A stretch of DNA of 38,139 nucleotides from the NCBI GenBank assembly GCA_016865895.1, contig VGNY01000009.1, positions 1 to 38,139 of the forward strand. The letters run 5' to 3'. The DNA comes from Chloroflexota bacterium (GTDB lineage: Bacteria > Chloroflexota > Dehalococcoidia > GIF9 > UBA5629). The notes below the pieces were generated by a model. The model searched no databases and was not told the origin of the DNA. It saw only the letters and a program-made list of their open reading frames with translations. Position numbers and translations under genes: made by a program. This document shows positions 160 through 34,950 of the stretch, one piece after another. The number at the start of each line of letters is the position of its first letter. Position 1 is the stretch's first letter.

Positions 160-190
160 GCCCCCTTAAAAAGGGGGCTATCTTCTTTCG
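160..190 (+). terminator. Intrinsic terminator after the hydrogenase gene
   Basis: GCCCCCTT (160-167), an AAA loop and AAGGGGGC (171-178) form a perfect 8-bp stem. A pyrimidine-rich tail (tatcttctttc) follows, although it is not a pure T run. It lies 47 bp after the hydrogenase stop and before the mrp start, so it probably separates the two transcription units. Confidence 0.7.
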
Positions 191-8587: not shown

Positions 8588-8616
8588 TTGTCACCTTTTT
8601 TGCCTAATGCTACAAT
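8588..8616 (+). promoter_or_regulatory. Sigma-70-type promoter of uvrC
   Basis: TTGTCA (8588-8593), a 17-bp spacer and TACAAT (8611-8616) give five of six matches at each box. Transcription would start near 8623, only about 7 nt before ATG 8630, so the mRNA is nearly leaderless and has no Shine-Dalgarno. The TTG of the -35 box is also the first in-frame start-like codon of the ORF, which argues against translation starting there. Confidence 0.65.
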
Positions 8617-8629
8617 AAATCTTAACACA

Positions 8630-10435
8630 ATGCCTATCGAGGAACAGTTAAAAGCGCTACCGGTAAAGCCCGGCGTCTACATCTTCAAAGACAGCCAAGA
8701 CAAAGTTATTTACGTTGGTAAGGCAACTAGTCTTCGCCACAGGGTAAAAGCTTACTTTAGTCCTAGTACTAATCTATCACCTAAACATCAAAGGCTAGTA
8801 GCCAGGATAAGTGACTTCGAATCCATAGTTGCCGACTCCGAACAAGAAGCGCTTATTCTTGAGTGTAATCTAATTAAGAAATTTCGCCCCAGTTATAATG
8901 TCCGTCTGAAGGATGACAAGACCTTTCCTTATCTTAAAATAGACCTTAAAAATGATTGGCCGAGTGTCCGCATTACTCGTCATTTTCACAAAAACGGGGA
9001 TAGGTATTTTGGCCCCTTTGCCAGCGCCGGTTCACTGCGCCAAACAATAAGGCTAATTAAAAAAATCTTTCCCTTTCGTTCTTGCACCAAGAACATTACC
9101 GGAAAAGAGTTAAAGCCCTGCCTCGAATATCATATACATCGTTGCCTCGGTCCTTGCACCGGCACCGTAAGCAAAGAGGAATACAACGAAGTAATAAAGC
9201 AAGTTATCCTGTTTCTTGAAGGCAAGCAGGAGTTAGTGCTCCGAGACCTCAGGCAAAAAATGGAGAGGGCTTCACAGCAGTTACAATTCGAAAAAGCAGC
9301 TTTGCTTCGCGATCAAATACAAGCTATAGAGAGAGTTATTGAAGGACAGAGGAGCGCCATCACCGTAAGAGGTGACCAGGATGCTATCGCTCTGGCACAA
9401 ACTAAGGATATGGCTTACGTGGAGATTTTCTTCATCCGCAATAATAAACTCATCGGGCGCGACTACATACTTCTGGACGGCATCCACGACGAAGAGCCGA
9501 GTCAGATAATGACCAGTTTCGTCAAACAATACTACGCATCAGCTACATCAATACCACCGCTAATCCTGCTCCAATATCCCATTGAGGAGCCAGAGGTTAT
9601 CACCAAATGGCTGGCAAATCAGAGAGACGCCCCGGTTAAACTGCATGTGCCACGTAAAGGAACCAAGAAGCAGCTAATAGGTATAGTCGCCAAAAACGCT
9701 CGCCAGGGTTTAGCTTTATACCAAGCAAAGCAATCAACAATCATTCAATCCGCTCTCGCCCTAGAAGAGCTAAAGGAAAGACTGGGGTTACCCAGAGTGC
9801 CAATGAGGATAGAGGCATATGATATTTCGAATATCAAAGGTAATCTAGCCGTAGGCAGCATGGCCGTTATTGACAAAGGCACGCCTAAGCCAGCTCATTA
9901 CCGACGCTTCAAAATCAGGTCAGTAGTCGGCATAGATGACTATGCCATGATACAAGAAGTGCTAAGACGGCGTTTCCGAAGACACTTGACTACTGAAGAC
10001 AAGTGGGCAGTAACGCCTGACCTGATTCTCATTGATGGTGGCAAAGGTCATCTCAATGCTGCATTGGAGGTAATGAAAGAACTCGGACTGGACTCCATTC
10101 CCACGGCCAGCCTGGCTAAAGAAAAGGAGGATGTTTTCATACCTGACAAATCTGAGCCAGTTGATATACCACAGACCTCAGCAGCACTGCATCTGCTCCA
10201 GAGAATTAGAGACGAAGCCCATCGCTTCGCCCTGGGTTATCATCGGAGACTGCGTCAAAAAGAAGGAATAGCCTCGGCTCTGGACAGCATCCCCGGCATC
10301 GGCCCTAAACGCAAAAAAGCCTTGCTCAAGAAATTTGGCTCGGTGCGGGGTATCAAAGAGGCATCAATAGACGAGCTGTCTGGGGTTGAAGGAATAACCA
10401 CCAAACTGGCCGGGAAATTGAAAGAACACCTGTGA
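8630..10435 (+). CDS. uvrC: UvrABC excinuclease subunit C
   Basis: 601 residues from ATG 8630. UvrC makes the two incisions around DNA lesions in nucleotide excision repair. Domains in order: GIY-YIG nuclease (PGVYIFKD 14-21 and VIYVGKA 26-32, Arg and Glu further on) for the 3' cut; a UVR motif near residue 205-235 (LRQKMERASQQLQFEKAALLRDQ, cited in part) for UvrB contact; an RNase H-like domain with YDISNIKG, DDYAMI and LILIDGGKGH for the 5' cut; and tandem helix-hairpin-helix at the C terminus (IPGIGPKRKKALLKKFGS and VEGITTKLAGKL). All key elements are intact. The in-frame TTG at 8588 is rejected because it forms the -35 box. UvrA is in the same window at 23771, transcribed separately. Confidence 0.96.
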   Translation: MPIEEQLKALPVKPGVYIFKDSQDKVIYVGKATSLRHRVKAYFSPSTNLSPKHQRLVARISDFESIVADSEQEALILECNLIKKFRPSYNVRLKDDKTFPYLKIDLKNDWPSVRITRHFHKNGDRYFGPFASAGSLRQTIRLIKKIFPFRSCTKNITGKELKPCLEYHIHRCLGPCTGTVSKEEYNEVIKQVILFLEGKQELVLRDLRQKMERASQQLQFEKAALLRDQIQAIERVIEGQRSAITVRGDQDAIALAQTKDMAYVEIFFIRNNKLIGRDYILLDGIHDEEPSQIMTSFVKQYYASATSIPPLILLQYPIEEPEVITKWLANQRDAPVKLHVPRKGTKKQLIGIVAKNARQGLALYQAKQSTIIQSALALEELKERLGLPRVPMRIEAYDISNIKGNLAVGSMAVIDKGTPKPAHYRRFKIRSVVGIDDYAMIQEVLRRRFRRHLTTEDKWAVTPDLILIDGGKGHLNAALEVMKELGLDSIPTASLAKEKEDVFIPDKSEPVDIPQTSAALHLLQRIRDEAHRFALGYHRRLRQKEGIASALDSIPGIGPKRKKALLKKFGSVRGIKEASIDELSGVEGITTKLAGKLKEHL

Positions 10436-10455: not shown

Positions 10456-10487
10456 TGTAGTTGCGAGGCTTCAGCCTCGCCCGTACA
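10456..10487 (+). repeat. TGTAG hairpin element, single-hairpin copy
   Basis: TGTAG (10456-10460), TT, then GCGAGGCT-TC-AGCCTCGC (10463-10480), a perfect 8-bp stem with a 2-nt loop, closing with CCGTACA. It belongs to the same family as the copies at 10792, 23663 and 33181. It sits between uvrC and the small membrane-protein gene, where its RNA hairpin could also slow transcription. Confidence 0.75.
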
Positions 10488-10579
10488 CCAAAAGAACATT
10501 GCCGTCAAGTGCTCCCTTAACGCTCCACTTGTAAGGTGAAGTTCCAAATAGCTATAATTGCAGAAAAAGGAGGGCGATT

Positions 10580-10765
10580 ATGTTAACAGCTTCAAAATGG
10601 CTTCTAATCATAGGTAGTGCATTACTAATCATAGACGTGATACTGATAGTAGCCAAAATACCTAACCCAATTCCCGGCTTGCCATTGCCCTGCCCTGTAA
10701 CTTGGCTCGTGCTTGGCGTTGGGCTTCTTCTTTTCGCTATCAGTAGCAAAGCCTTTAAGAAATAG
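10580..10765 (+). CDS. Small two-helix membrane protein
   Basis: 61 residues. There are two hydrophobic helices, about 5-26 (SKWLLIIGSALLIIDVILIV) and 38-56 (PVTWLVLGVGLLLFAIS), joined by a short proline-rich turn (KIPNPIPGLPLPC) and ending in basic FKK. This is a helical-hairpin membrane protein, probably with both termini cytoplasmic. I recognise no family. A strong ribosome-binding site, AAAGGAGG (10566-10573), lies 6 nt before ATG 10580, so the gene is very likely translated despite its size. Hairpin-bearing repeat copies lie on both sides. Confidence 0.75.
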   Translation: MLTASKWLLIIGSALLIIDVILIVAKIPNPIPGLPLPCPVTWLVLGVGLLLFAISSKAFKK

Positions 10766-10791
10766 ACCGCGGCCAACAATAACCCCACCAA

Positions 10792-10850
10792 TGTAGTTGC
10801 GACCCTTTAGGGTCGCCCGAAGCTAGGATTGAGCGAGGCTAAAGCCTCCC
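10792..10850 (+). repeat. TGTAG bipartite hairpin element
   Basis: TGTAG (10792-10796) followed by GCGACCCT-TT-AGGGTCGC (10799-10816), a 16-bp spacer, and a second hairpin GCGAGGCT-AA-AGCCTCCC (10833-10850) with one mismatch. It lies between the convergent genes at 10580 and 10860, where it could serve as a bidirectional terminator. Confidence 0.75.
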
Positions 10851-22816: not shown

Positions 22817-23575
22817 CTATTTCCCCTGAAACTTCGGAGGCCTCTTTTCCAGAAAAGCCCTGATGCCCTCGGTGCGGTCTTCAGTTGTGTGCAGTAGGCA
22901 ATATAAGTCAGCTTCCAGCCGCAGCCCCTGTTCTAGCGTCAGGTCTAAGCCCTTACATATCGCCTCTTTAGCGTATTTCACCGCAAAAAGAGCTTTCGCG
23001 GCTATCGCCTGTGCCATGTCCATCACCAGCGGCATGAGTTCCTCTCGCGAAACCACTCTATGAATTAAGCCGATGTGATAAGCCTCTGTGGCATCTATAT
23101 GCTGCCCGGTGAGAAGCATCTCCATAGCCTTGGCTCGACCTACCAGCCTCGGCAACCGCTGGGTTGCACCATCCCAGGGAATAAATCCTAAGGCAACATG
23201 GTTTAAGGCAAACCGGGCCGTTTCTACAGCAATTCTTAAGTCACAGGCCAAAGCTAACTCCAGCCCCTGCCCTAAAGCATCACCGTTAATAGCAACGATA
23301 ACCGGGATTGTAAGGCTGGCCACCGGGGCAGCAACAGATGGCGGTTTAGCTATCTGTAAGGAGAACTCTTTCAAGTCAGCACCAACAGAAAATGCTTTCT
23401 CTCCGACGCCGGTAATGATTACCACCCTTGCCATTTCGTCACGGTTAACGTCGGCACAAACATCAGCCAACTCTTCAGCCAGCCGCATGTTTATGGCATT
23501 ATCCGCTTCTGGACGGTTGATGCTTATTAGCCTTACTGCTTCTGCCTTTCGATATAAAAGTGTCTCGTAGCGCAT
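22817..23575 (-). CDS. Crotonase-family protein with a substituted active-site glutamate
   Basis: 252 residues from ATG 23575, where MRYETLLYRKAEAVRLISINRP is the normal crotonase opening. The open frame continues to 23731, but that part has no family similarity, and an AAAGG lies 9 nt before ATG 23575. The oxyanion-hole segments are KAFSVGADLKEF (60-71) and NGDALGQGLELALACD (97-112). The first catalytic glutamate, Glu106, is kept. The second, in FGxPE of hydratases, is replaced: the segment reads FALNHVALG with His126. Also odd is FIPWDGATQRLPR, where a Gly-rich loop is usual. The family is catalytically diverse, so a different reaction (isomerase, hydrolase or dienoyl-CoA chemistry) is more likely than plain hydration. 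Confidence 0.88.
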   Translation of the reverse strand: MRYETLLYRKAEAVRLISINRPEADNAINMRLAEELADVCADVNRDEMARVVIITGVGEKAFSVGADLKEFSLQIAKPPSVAAPVASLTIPVIVAINGDALGQGLELALACDLRIAVETARFALNHVALGFIPWDGATQRLPRLVGRAKAMEMLLTGQHIDATEAYHIGLIHRVVSREELMPLVMDMAQAIAAKALFAVKYAKEAICKGLDLTLEQGLRLEADLYCLLHTTEDRTEGIRAFLEKRPPKFQGK

Positions 23576-23662
23576 GCGACCTGGCCTTTGCCTGTGAATA
23601 CAGCCATTATACAATAACCACAAATGCAGGGACAGGGTTTCAGCCTGTTCTTGAGTAGAACA

Positions 23663-23704
23663 TGTAGTGCGACCCTTTAGGGTCGCCGAGGTGGGGCTAA
23701 AGCT
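23663..23704 (+). repeat. TGTAG bipartite hairpin element, decayed second half
   Basis: TGTAG (23663-23667) is followed by a perfect hairpin GCGACCCT-TT-AGGGTCGC (23669-23686), then a decayed second hairpin with GGGGCTAAAGCTCC at its core (about 23693-23706). It lies between divergent crotonase and uvrA genes, so here it cannot act as a shared terminator. Confidence 0.7.
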
Positions 23705-23770
23705 CCAAAATGCAGCACACCCGAGTCTCATGCTAAAATAAATAGCGAGCTACACAATGAGGAAATAGAT

Positions 23771-32906: not shown

Positions 32907-33128
32907 TCAAACCTCTATTGCAAACAATGCATATCCACGCTTTACTGCTTGGCCATCAGAAACATTCATTTCAACAATTCTGCCACCAATTGGTGCCACA
33001 ATAGGGTTCTCCATCTTCATAGCCTCCAATAAACACAAAGTGTCACCCTCTTTGACCTGGTCACCGACGGCAACACCAATATTCCTTATTATCCCTGGCA
33101 TGTGGCTCTCGATAATCTCTCTTGCCAT
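32907..33128 (-). CDS. Stand-alone biotin carrier (biotinyl/lipoyl-domain) protein
   Basis: 73 residues, one complete biotinyl domain. The EAMKM motif (35-39) carries the biotinylated Lys38. The fold is shown by HMPGIIRNIGVAVGDQVKEGDTL and by the mirrored NPIVAPIGGRIVEM...DGQAVKRG half. It would carry CO2 for a biotin-dependent carboxylase such as propionyl- or methylmalonyl-type carboxyltransferases or a decarboxylase pump. No carboxyltransferase or biotin carboxylase gene is adjacent in this window, so its partners lie elsewhere. GGAGG lies 8 nt or so before ATG 33128. Nearby acyl-CoA genes support a role in acyl-CoA metabolism. Confidence 0.9.
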   Translation of the reverse strand: MAREIIESHMPGIIRNIGVAVGDQVKEGDTLCLLEAMKMENPIVAPIGGRIVEMNVSDGQAVKRGYALFAIEV

Positions 33129-33180: not shown

Positions 33181-33238
33181 TGTAGCGGCGAGGCTTTAGC
33201 CTCGCTTCGAAAAGCGACCCTAAAGGGTCGCAACTACA
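33181..33238 (+). repeat. TGTAG bipartite hairpin element, most complete copy
   Basis: A 58-bp element running from TGTAG (33181-33185) to CTACA (33234-33238), which are inverted repeats. Inside are two hairpins: GCGAGGCT-TT-AGCCTCGC (33188-33205) and GCGACCCT-AA-AGGGTCGC (33214-33231), separated by 8 bp. It lies upstream of both the biotin carrier gene and the divergent synthetase gene. Confidence 0.85.
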
Positions 33239-33363: not shown

Positions 33364-34803
33364 TTGAACAGCATTGTAGAACAACTTGACCCCATCTTCA
33401 AGCCCAAATCAATTGCTGTCTTGGGCGCCTCCGACAGACAAGGTAAATGGGGATACCTGATGGTAGATAGGCCTCTAAAGACTGGATATAGTGGAGCCAT
33501 ATATCCTGTAAATCCCAATAAGGACGAGATTCTTGGCTTACGCGCCTATCGGAGTATCCTGGATATCCCTGACCAAGTTGACCTAGCTGTGATAGCAGCT
33601 CCGGCTCCCAGCACGCCTCAATTGATGCAAGAGTGCGTGAAAAAGGGAATTAAGGGAGCAATTCTCATCTCAGGTGGATTCGCCGAGGCCGGAAATAAGG
33701 GAAAGGCACTTGAAGATGAGATTGTGAAGATAGCCAAAGGAACAGGACTGCGGTTTGTGGGCCCCAATTGTATGGGAATATGGAGCGCTGCCGGGCAACT
33801 CAATCTATGTTTCCAGCAAGCACCTAAACCGGGAGCCATTGCCTTTGTTTCCCAGAGTGGGACTTTCGGTGGCTATCTATCTGAGATAGCAAATGCTAGA
33901 GGTTATGGACTGGCCAAGTTCATAAGTATCGGAAATCAAGCCGACCTTACCGCCTCTGACTACCTGGAATACCTGGCCGAAGACAAAGAGACAAGAGTCA
34001 TCGTCTTCTATATGGAAGGCTTTAAAGATGGCAGGAGGTTCTTTGAGCTTGCCAGAGAAATAATAAAGAGGAAGCCAATAGTTATCTATAAAGGTGGCAA
34101 TAGTGGGGCTGGCGCTAGAGCAATGCTATCCCACACCGCTTCTCTCGCTGGCTCTGATAATACATTCGAAGGGATGTGTCGACAGGCTGGCCTCATAAGG
34201 GCTGAGGAGGCTCTGCACTCCTTTGAAATGGCGGAGGCACTTGTGAGCCAGCCTTTACCTCAAGGCAAAAGGGTAGCCGTAATGGGAAGTGGAGGCCAGG
34301 GCGTTGTCACTACTGATGCCTGCGCCTCTCTAGGACTTGAAGTTCCTGAGTTCGATGAGGAGACCGTAACAGGTTTGAAAAGTATTTTACCCCCACACGC
34401 GCCACCACCCAGAAACCCGGTGGACTTCGCCGGTAGTTACCGCACTACTCTTGATGAGACATCAGTCACCGAAAAGCTCCTCAGCCTGAACTACATTGAC
34501 GGGGTAATAACCAATGTTCCCATAAGCCCAATGGTTTGGGGACTTAAGCCAATCTCAACAGATACTGACAAGGCTCTATCCGATGCTATCACGGCCGCCA
34601 TTCAAAGTGCTGAGCTATTCGCTTCCCTCCCCAAGAAATATAATAAACCAATCATCACACTTCGCTTTCGTCGCGCTGATGACGACCCCATAACCAAAAC
34701 CATAAAGGAAGCCGGAATACCCGTCTATGACACTCCTGAGCAGTGTGCTCGCGCTATGTATGCCCTGGTAAAATACGCCGAAGCCAGAAGAGCCGTCGAA
34801 TAA
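33364..34803 (+). CDS. NDP-forming acyl-CoA synthetase, alpha subunit (CoA-binding and ligase domains)
   Basis: 479 residues. Domain 1 (about 8-140) is a CoA-binding Rossmann domain (KPKSIAVLGASDRQGKWGY, GAIYPVNP, GAILISGGFAEAGN, GPNCMGIW). Domains 2 and 3 (about 150-470) are succinyl-CoA-synthetase-like (FVSQSGTFGGYLSEIANARG, GNQADLTASDYLEYLAED). The phosphorylated histidine is His257 in SHTASLAGSD, the same number as in characterised archaeal ADP-forming acetyl-CoA synthetases. The ATP-grasp beta subunit is not fused and not found next door, so a partner gene elsewhere is expected. The enzyme makes ATP from acyl-CoA during fermentation of acids or amino acids. The start is TTG 33364; no ATG lies near, and the family-typical opening begins shortly after. 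TATAAT at 33307-33312 may be its -10 box. Confidence 0.92.
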   Translation: MNSIVEQLDPIFKPKSIAVLGASDRQGKWGYLMVDRPLKTGYSGAIYPVNPNKDEILGLRAYRSILDIPDQVDLAVIAAPAPSTPQLMQECVKKGIKGAILISGGFAEAGNKGKALEDEIVKIAKGTGLRFVGPNCMGIWSAAGQLNLCFQQAPKPGAIAFVSQSGTFGGYLSEIANARGYGLAKFISIGNQADLTASDYLEYLAEDKETRVIVFYMEGFKDGRRFFELAREIIKRKPIVIYKGGNSGAGARAMLSHTASLAGSDNTFEGMCRQAGLIRAEEALHSFEMAEALVSQPLPQGKRVAVMGSGGQGVVTTDACASLGLEVPEFDEETVTGLKSILPPHAPPPRNPVDFAGSYRTTLDETSVTEKLLSLNYIDGVITNVPISPMVWGLKPISTDTDKALSDAITAAIQSAELFASLPKKYNKPIITLRFRRADDDPITKTIKEAGIPVYDTPEQCARAMYALVKYAEARRAVE

Positions 34804-34873: not shown

Positions 34874-34950
34874 GGGCCATTAGCTCAGTCGGTTAGAGCA
34901 CGGTCCTGATAAGACCGGGGTCTGTGGTTCGAGTCCACAATGGCCCACCA
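34874..34950 (+). tRNA. tRNA-Ile (GAT anticodon)
   Basis: A 77-nt cloverleaf including encoded CCA. The acceptor stem is GGGCCAT (34874-34880) with ATGGCCC (34940-34946). The D arm is in 34883-34898. The anticodon stem CGGTC/GACCG (34901-34905 and 34913-34917) encloses loop CTGATAA with anticodon GAT (34908-34910). The T arm TGTGG-TTCGAGT-CCACA spans 34923-34939. The discriminator is A34947, then CCA. All stems pair perfectly. The gene stands alone, not in an rRNA operon, and an accessory segment begins right after it. Confidence 0.97.

Follow-up and report, generated by a model that had tools for sequence, protein, structure and literature searches.

What are the short palindromes that recur between unrelated genes in this stretch of a Dehalococcoidia genome, and what could have dispersed them? 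The stretch, referred to here as the window, comprises 38,139 nucleotides and is contig 9 of a 2.61-Mb genome (G000) in 306 contigs. An initial annotation had reported hairpins at four loci (10456, 10792, 23663, and 33181), the most complete copy measuring 58 bp with TGTAG and CTACA ends. The coordinates prove exact: a TGTAG starts at each of the four positions, followed by a perfect hairpin with 8-bp arms, and two types of stem occur, type A (GCGACCC) and type B (GCGAGGC).

The 58-bp copy is a complete inverted pair at 33181–33238 that reads TGTAG, CG, hairpin B, 8 nt, hairpin A, AA, and CTACA, the latter ending at 33238. Its left REP (33181–33205, plus strand) contains the type B hairpin GCGAGGCTTTAGCCTCGC at 33188–33205 with the loop TTTA; the spacer occupies 33206–33213, and the right REP (33214–33238, minus strand) contains the type A hairpin GCGACCCTAAAGGGTCGC at 33214–33231, followed by AA and CTACA; read on the minus strand, this is TGTAG-TT-GCGACCC. 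Divergent genes flank the pair, one at 32907–33128 (minus) with the motif EAMKMEN, which we take to be of the biotinyl type, and one at 33364–34803 (plus) encoding CoA-ligase domains. A lone REP monomer is found at 10456–10480 (plus), where TGTAG and TT precede a type B hairpin (GCGAGGCTTCAGCCTCGC, 10463–10480) with the loop TTCA, between uvrC (8588–10435) and an ORF of 61 amino acids (10580–10765). This small ORF downstream of uvrC has no Pfam match, and DNA similarity at its place is kept in the relatives G055, G056, G057, G073, G081, and G082.

At 10792–10816 (plus), TGTAG and TT are followed by the type A hairpin GCGACCCTTTAGGGTCGC (10799–10816) with the loop TTTA. Together with a decayed type B partner that has lost its CTAC tail (GCGAGGCTAAAGCCTCcC, 10833–10850, minus), this REP forms a former inverted pair flanked by convergent genes. 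The REP at 23663–23686 (plus) has TGTAG, a single T, and the same hairpin GCGACCCTTTAGGGTCGC (23669–23686; loop TTTA), with a decayed partner hairpin, GGGGCTAAAGCTCC, at 23693–23706 (minus). Its divergent neighbors are an enoyl-CoA hydratase-like gene (minus) and uvrA (plus); the ECH_1 match starts only at residue 63 of the ORF at 22817–23731, which places the likely gene start downstream of the mechanical ORF start. Immediately beside this REP, a decayed GGACAG-type palindrome (GGACAGGGTTTCAGCCTGTTC, 23630–23650) is present, which suggests a mosaic of two REP families. The CTTTAG and CTAAAG sequences that had been annotated as two kinds of core do exist, but they are one TTYA loop seen on opposite strands, and at 10456 the loop reads CTTCAG instead of CTTTAG.

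Throughout the genome, the elements are numerous and dispersed, as are REPs of the GTAG superfamily. The pattern GCGAGGCTNNAGCCTCGC, with 16 fixed bases, occurs 51 times and the looser core GCGANNCTNNAGNNTCGC 104 times in the 2.61 Mb, with no occurrence of the reversed control pattern in either case; 89 copies have both GTAG 0–2 nt ahead and a TTYA loop. The genome-wide count that the initial annotation had recommended thus gave a high number by either measure. We sampled 41 stretches, the window among them, with 796,649 bases in total. Counting arms of at least 7 bp, 90 hairpins in this sample stand 0–3 nt behind GTAG, which forms an unpaired tag on one side of the short stem-loop. The control tags CTAC, ATGG, GAGT, and GATG yielded 8, 8, 9, and 10 hairpins in the same sample; GGTA, TGAG, TAGG, and AGTG yielded 16, 22, 28, and 39, and we think that some of these matches are the same elements in a shifted register. 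In the initial sample of 425,819 bases, the tag was found on 43 of 179 hairpins and the control on 4. The window's genome harbors at least three REP families and two RAYTs.

The stems of these elements vary in a paired fashion. A pattern in which only GTAG, the outer GCG/CGC, and the T..A of the loop were fixed retrieved 51 sites, and their free stem pairs are complementary in 198 of 204 cells; 2000 shuffles gave a mean of 136.8 and never more than 160. At pair 5, C-G occurs in 28 sites and G-C in 20; at pair 6, C-G in 30 and G-C in 21; and at pair 7, C-G in 41, T-A in 6, and A-T in 1. Covariation was the check proposed for the compensatory evolution that the initial annotation had suspected in the arms, and it bears this suspicion out: the two alternating stem sequences represent a single unit whose stem varies in a paired manner. 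Since pairing matters more than the stem letters, stems drift by paired changes, from CC/GG to GG/CC. Read from GTAG, 74 of the 85 classified copies have TT or TC as the middle dinucleotide of the loop and 11 have another, and the loop lies 9–10 nt from GTAG in 63 of the 67 hairpins of type A or B and 10 nt from it in all 14 GGACAG hairpins; the class labels are loose, and hairpins counted at window 160–178, L032 2059, and L173 16060 resemble chance hairpins.

The elements are also arranged in a distinct manner. Among pairs no more than 60 bp apart, 19 are inverted with GTAG outward (HH), which is the arrangement of BIMEs and REPINs, compared with one inward (TT) and one tandem (HT) pair; five hairpins classed as "other" are excluded from these dimer counts, as they are from the loop counts. 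The HH pairs comprise 13 of A with B, five of GGACAG type (ACC with GTC or GTT), and one of the GGAGCATC family, with spacers of 2–40 nt. In the two main families, each of the 18 inverted pairs lying close together is a heterodimer of unlike stems; A/A and B/B inverted pairs were absent among the pairs of up to 60 bp in the sample. Because the stems within a pair are unlike, the pair remains two small hairpins and does not become a single long and perfect inverted repeat.

It is very likely that these elements are GTAG-tagged REPs, often in the form of inverted heterodimers (BIME- or REPIN-like), with RAYT-based recognition and movement. REPs are small passenger repeats of bacterial genomes that would spread between genes with the aid of a specialized DNA-cutting enzyme; here they occur in a poorly known relative of Dehalococcoides within the Chloroflexota. 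The initial guess of a REP-like mobile unit is thereby supported and made specific, as REPs of the GTAG superfamily arranged as BIMEs. With the tag, the TTYA loop, and their distance fixed and the stem covarying freely, recognition of single-stranded DNA hairpins by a RAYT is the best explanation. In such a unit, GTAG and one or two unpaired bases would precede a perfectly paired stem of some 8 bp that closes the TTYA loop. Most likely, an HUH-type RAYT (TnpA-REP) would read it in single-stranded form, with GTAG serving as guide alongside hairpin and TTYA loop, and, by cutting nearby, would move REPs or REP pairs between genes. We infer recognition, cleavage, and mobilization from published work on other RAYTs. 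For TnpA-Mb of Marinomonas, the available text of Corneloup et al. 2021 (PMC8266576) reports that T, T, and A of the loop are required with the third base free, that perfect pairing matters and the stem letters carry little weight, that GTAG guides the cut site, and that swapping the whole stem lowered cleavage only moderately. The elements described here follow the same constraints, and their TTYA loop agrees with the one that TnpA-Mb needs. The route of REP dissemination is still called unelucidated there.

Searches with the RAYT model NF047646 (REP-associated tyrosine transposase) gave two matches in the window's own genome, each beside another REP family. One of them, L084, is a protein of 160 amino acids whose gene has GTAG-GGACAG hairpins on both sides; it aligns with the structure of E. 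coli TnpA-REP (4er8; E 8.4e-05), including the HxH, W..DH..R, and YI..NP motifs. The residues of these motifs have established roles in RAYTs. Part of these roles is described in the available text of PMC6006769. The other, L024/L067 (G000:C105; L024 1174–1863, minus strand), has 229 amino acids and REP-like hairpins within its reading frame, a GTAG...CTAC palindrome (GGTAGATTGGAGCATCTGCTCCAATCTACC) lying between the HUH and Y motifs; hairpins of this family also occur elsewhere in the genome behind GTAG.

RAYTs flanked by stems of the same type as the window's elements were found in three other genomes. GCGAGGC-type stems lie on both sides of L136 (G091) and L137 (G092), from MAGs titled Deltaproteobacteria, and CGACCC/CGAGGC pairs on both sides of L072 (G041), from the window's order. 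At L072 1333–2375, REP heterodimers form short arrays on either side of the RAYT gene. The search for an associated RAYT that the initial annotation had advised was therefore successful in these genomes but not in the window's own, where the two RAYTs have other stems and none flanked by GCGACCC/GCGAGGC was found. A search for a decayed cognate RAYT with the L137 protein (E up to 1; G000, G056, G057, G068, G073, and G038) returned known RAYTs and weak rows only. For GTAG-superfamily REPs, a cognate RAYT flanked by its REPs is usual, not obligatory.

It is conceivable, if somewhat doubtful, as a sub-variant of the preferred explanation, that the GCGA family no longer has a RAYT of its own in this genome, having lost it, and is either inert by now or moved by L084, the GGACAG RAYT. 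We built a tree of RAYT sequences. A motif rule applied to 44 RAYT loci yielded 25 sequences and gave no frame at 19; the tree contains 24 of the 25, the remaining one, of 337 residues, having been dropped. Eleven RAYTs labeled as having GTAG-TTYA-like flanking REPs form one group (82/93), in which L084 falls together with the GCGA-flanked RAYTs; it is 42% identical to L137. Service by L084 would also be consistent with the GTAG, the TTYA loop, and the GTAG-to-loop distance that both REP families have in common and with the moderate effect of the stem swap in Marinomonas. Against it, stem type tracks RAYT subclade within the group, four GGACAG RAYTs (99/99) being separate from five with CGA-type stems (93/95), which suggests specificity. 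GGACAG stems lie on both sides of L084 and L069, intact GGACAG hairpins on one side only of L066, and a decayed pair on one side of L083. L140 speaks against a strict correspondence between stem types and RAYT clades: it falls outside the group, and only one of its flanks bears a CGA-type REP pair, whose loop is longer. Moreover, with 306 contigs and a completeness of 96%, the assembly may simply lack the cognate RAYT.

A second genome, G056 (L047, L052, L055, and others), contains 108 strictly tagged GCGA-type REPs, or 106 by the stricter TGTAG pattern, and no RAYT was found in this 91% complete assembly at E 0.001 or with the L137 query at E up to 1. Like the lack of a RAYT with matching stems in the window's genome and the 11 loops other than TT or TC, this counts against the preferred explanation. 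G057, from the same genus as G056, has 11 copies of the TGTAG pattern and two RAYTs. Across 84 genomes of the window's order, the strict TGTAG pattern is present in six; RAYT matches occur in four of these six and in 13 of the other 78 (Fisher p 0.014), a co-occurrence to which we give little weight because relatedness was uncontrolled. With its 108 copies and no RAYT found, G056, like the window's genome, provides material for the question of whether REPs need a RAYT of their own.

The genomic placement of the elements bears on whether they could instead be intrinsic transcription terminators or 3′-end RNA stabilizers after genes, which we regard as highly improbable. The hairpins are GC-rich and some lie between convergent genes (10792; 14 of the 81 type A, type B, and GGACAG hairpins sampled), as this explanation would have it. 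However, two of the four window loci and 12 of the 81 lie between divergent genes and 34 between genes of the same direction, and no terminator-like site overlaps any copy in two scans. Of the remaining sampled hairpins, 17 are at a stretch edge and four inside mechanical ORFs, which hold 85.6% of random positions; the elements are thus mostly outside genes, and their gene-orientation shares are close to the expectation for random intergenic positions. Occurrence upstream as well as downstream of genes, noted in the initial annotation, is confirmed by 23663 and 33181 between divergent genes and 10792 between convergent ones, and the outcome that would have told against its mobile unit, all copies acting as terminators at gene 3′ ends, was not observed, as no intrinsic-terminator match coincides with any copy. 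The 5′ GTAG tag and the heterodimer rule would also be left unexplained. An intrinsic terminator in the sense of a hairpin with a U-tract at gene 3′ ends is largely refuted by the divergent sites and the missing U-tract.

The covarying stem pairs might also call to mind a structured non-coding RNA or a riboswitch-like family, to which we attach very little probability. The same covariation is predicted for single-stranded DNA hairpins recognized by a RAYT, and the window copies adjoin unrelated genes, between gene pairs of every orientation. The Rfam matches in the window are limited to a tRNA at 34874–34947; a known RNA family was rejected, there being no Rfam match at the elements. A conventional MITE with TGTAG terminal repeats and a DDE transposase would fit the 58-bp unit with its TGTAG/CTACA ends and the dispersed intergenic copies, but is scarcely credible given that single tagged hairpins exist beside pairs, that spacers range from 2 to 40 nt, and that the transposases associated with matching elements are HUH RAYTs.

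The GTAG-tagged REPs extend beyond the window's order. A heterodimer pattern that did not include GTAG retrieved 45 exact pairs in 44 stretches of the genome_contigs collection; of the 45 pairs, 43 have GTAG within 6 nt upstream and 41 have CTAC within 6 nt downstream. The MAGs that bear them are titled Chloroflexi/Dehalococcoidia, Endomicrobiales, Nitrospinae, Deltaproteobacteria, Zixiibacteriota, and Bacillota. Thirteen such genomes were searched and contain 3 to 39 tagged copies each, although contigs of those with few copies may be misbinned. The 58-bp element with its flanks had no match in the plasmid collection.

The window's genus is represented only by its own genome, so orthologous gaps were compared at genus distance. 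Between uvrC and the small ORF, the window has 115 nt that include the REP, and G057, G073, and G082 have 35, 43, and 33 nt without one. Between the small ORF and a DUF72 gene, G057 carries REPs, as does G056, and G073 has a REP of the GGACAG type; the uvrC-DUF72 gaps of G083 and G067 measure 24 and 79 nt and have neither the small ORF nor REPs. In the gap that matches the 33181 pair, the pair is absent from G056. In L205 and L206 (G056, G055), the uvrC-DUF72 gap is taken up by a further intergenic sequence of repeat-like character, TGTCATTGCGAG...GAAGCAATC. What these between-genus comparisons show is turnover and no clean insertion; other flanking sequence differs as well, so that loss or general turnover may account for the absences. 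It seems rather unlikely, though worth stating, that the design of GTAG, CGACC/CGAGG heterodimer, and TTYA loop crossed phyla together with its RAYT subclade and that the roughly 100 copies in Dehalococcoidia outlive their RAYT, either as fossils or served in trans by the RAYT of another REP family, which would recognize loop and guide and not the stem sequence.

The elements belong to the published GTAG REP/BIME type, and our finding mostly confirms published work: the available text of Di Nocera et al. 2013 (PMC3733652) already describes GTAG REPs, heterodimers, flanking of RAYTs, and presence in Chloroflexi, with the family GTAG-23 from T. roseum. The six exact cores were not found as text in the literature searched, and among the matches listed for Dehalococcoids or Chloroflexi with REP or RAYT, none concerns this REP family by title; palindrome counts for Dehalococcoides mccartyi are given in the available text of PMC12306157. 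What our analysis contributes is the extension of well-formed REP/RAYT systems to uncultured Dehalococcoidia and a natural case in which stems change freely and tag, loop, and spacing stay fixed.

Several known systems share parts of this design. An in-frame GTAG...CTAC hairpin as in L024/L067 is also a feature of subclass 2.4 tnpA-REP genes, which carry REPs in frame (PMC6006769); this hairpin is of the GGAGCATC family, unlike the window's elements. The Group 3 (subclass 2.5) REPtrons Mb of Marinomonas and Sm of Stenotrophomonas, according to the text available of PMC8266576, likewise have a perfect palindrome whose pairing is needed and whose stem letters are of minor importance; Mb in addition has GTAG 2 nt from the stem and the loop T-T-N-A, but its stem is 5 bp, versus 8–10 bp here. 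The GTAG-to-loop distance of our elements resembles the published foot-plus-stem ruler of subclass 2.5. In E. coli BIMEs the REP stem is bulged, whereas that of our elements is perfect. Those BIMEs (Y and Z REPs, TnpA-REP) otherwise resemble the pairs described here in that unlike REPs with GTAG are inverted (PMC8266576). The GTAG superfamily as described in PMC3733652 likewise has the GTAG tag, a perfect short stem, the TY loop, HH dimers, the preference for heterodimers, intergenic location, and flanked RAYTs; the GCGACCC/GCGAGGC stems may fall within one of its 24 listed families. For the preference for unlike stems, the same source suggests protection from the clearance of long hairpins as the reason.
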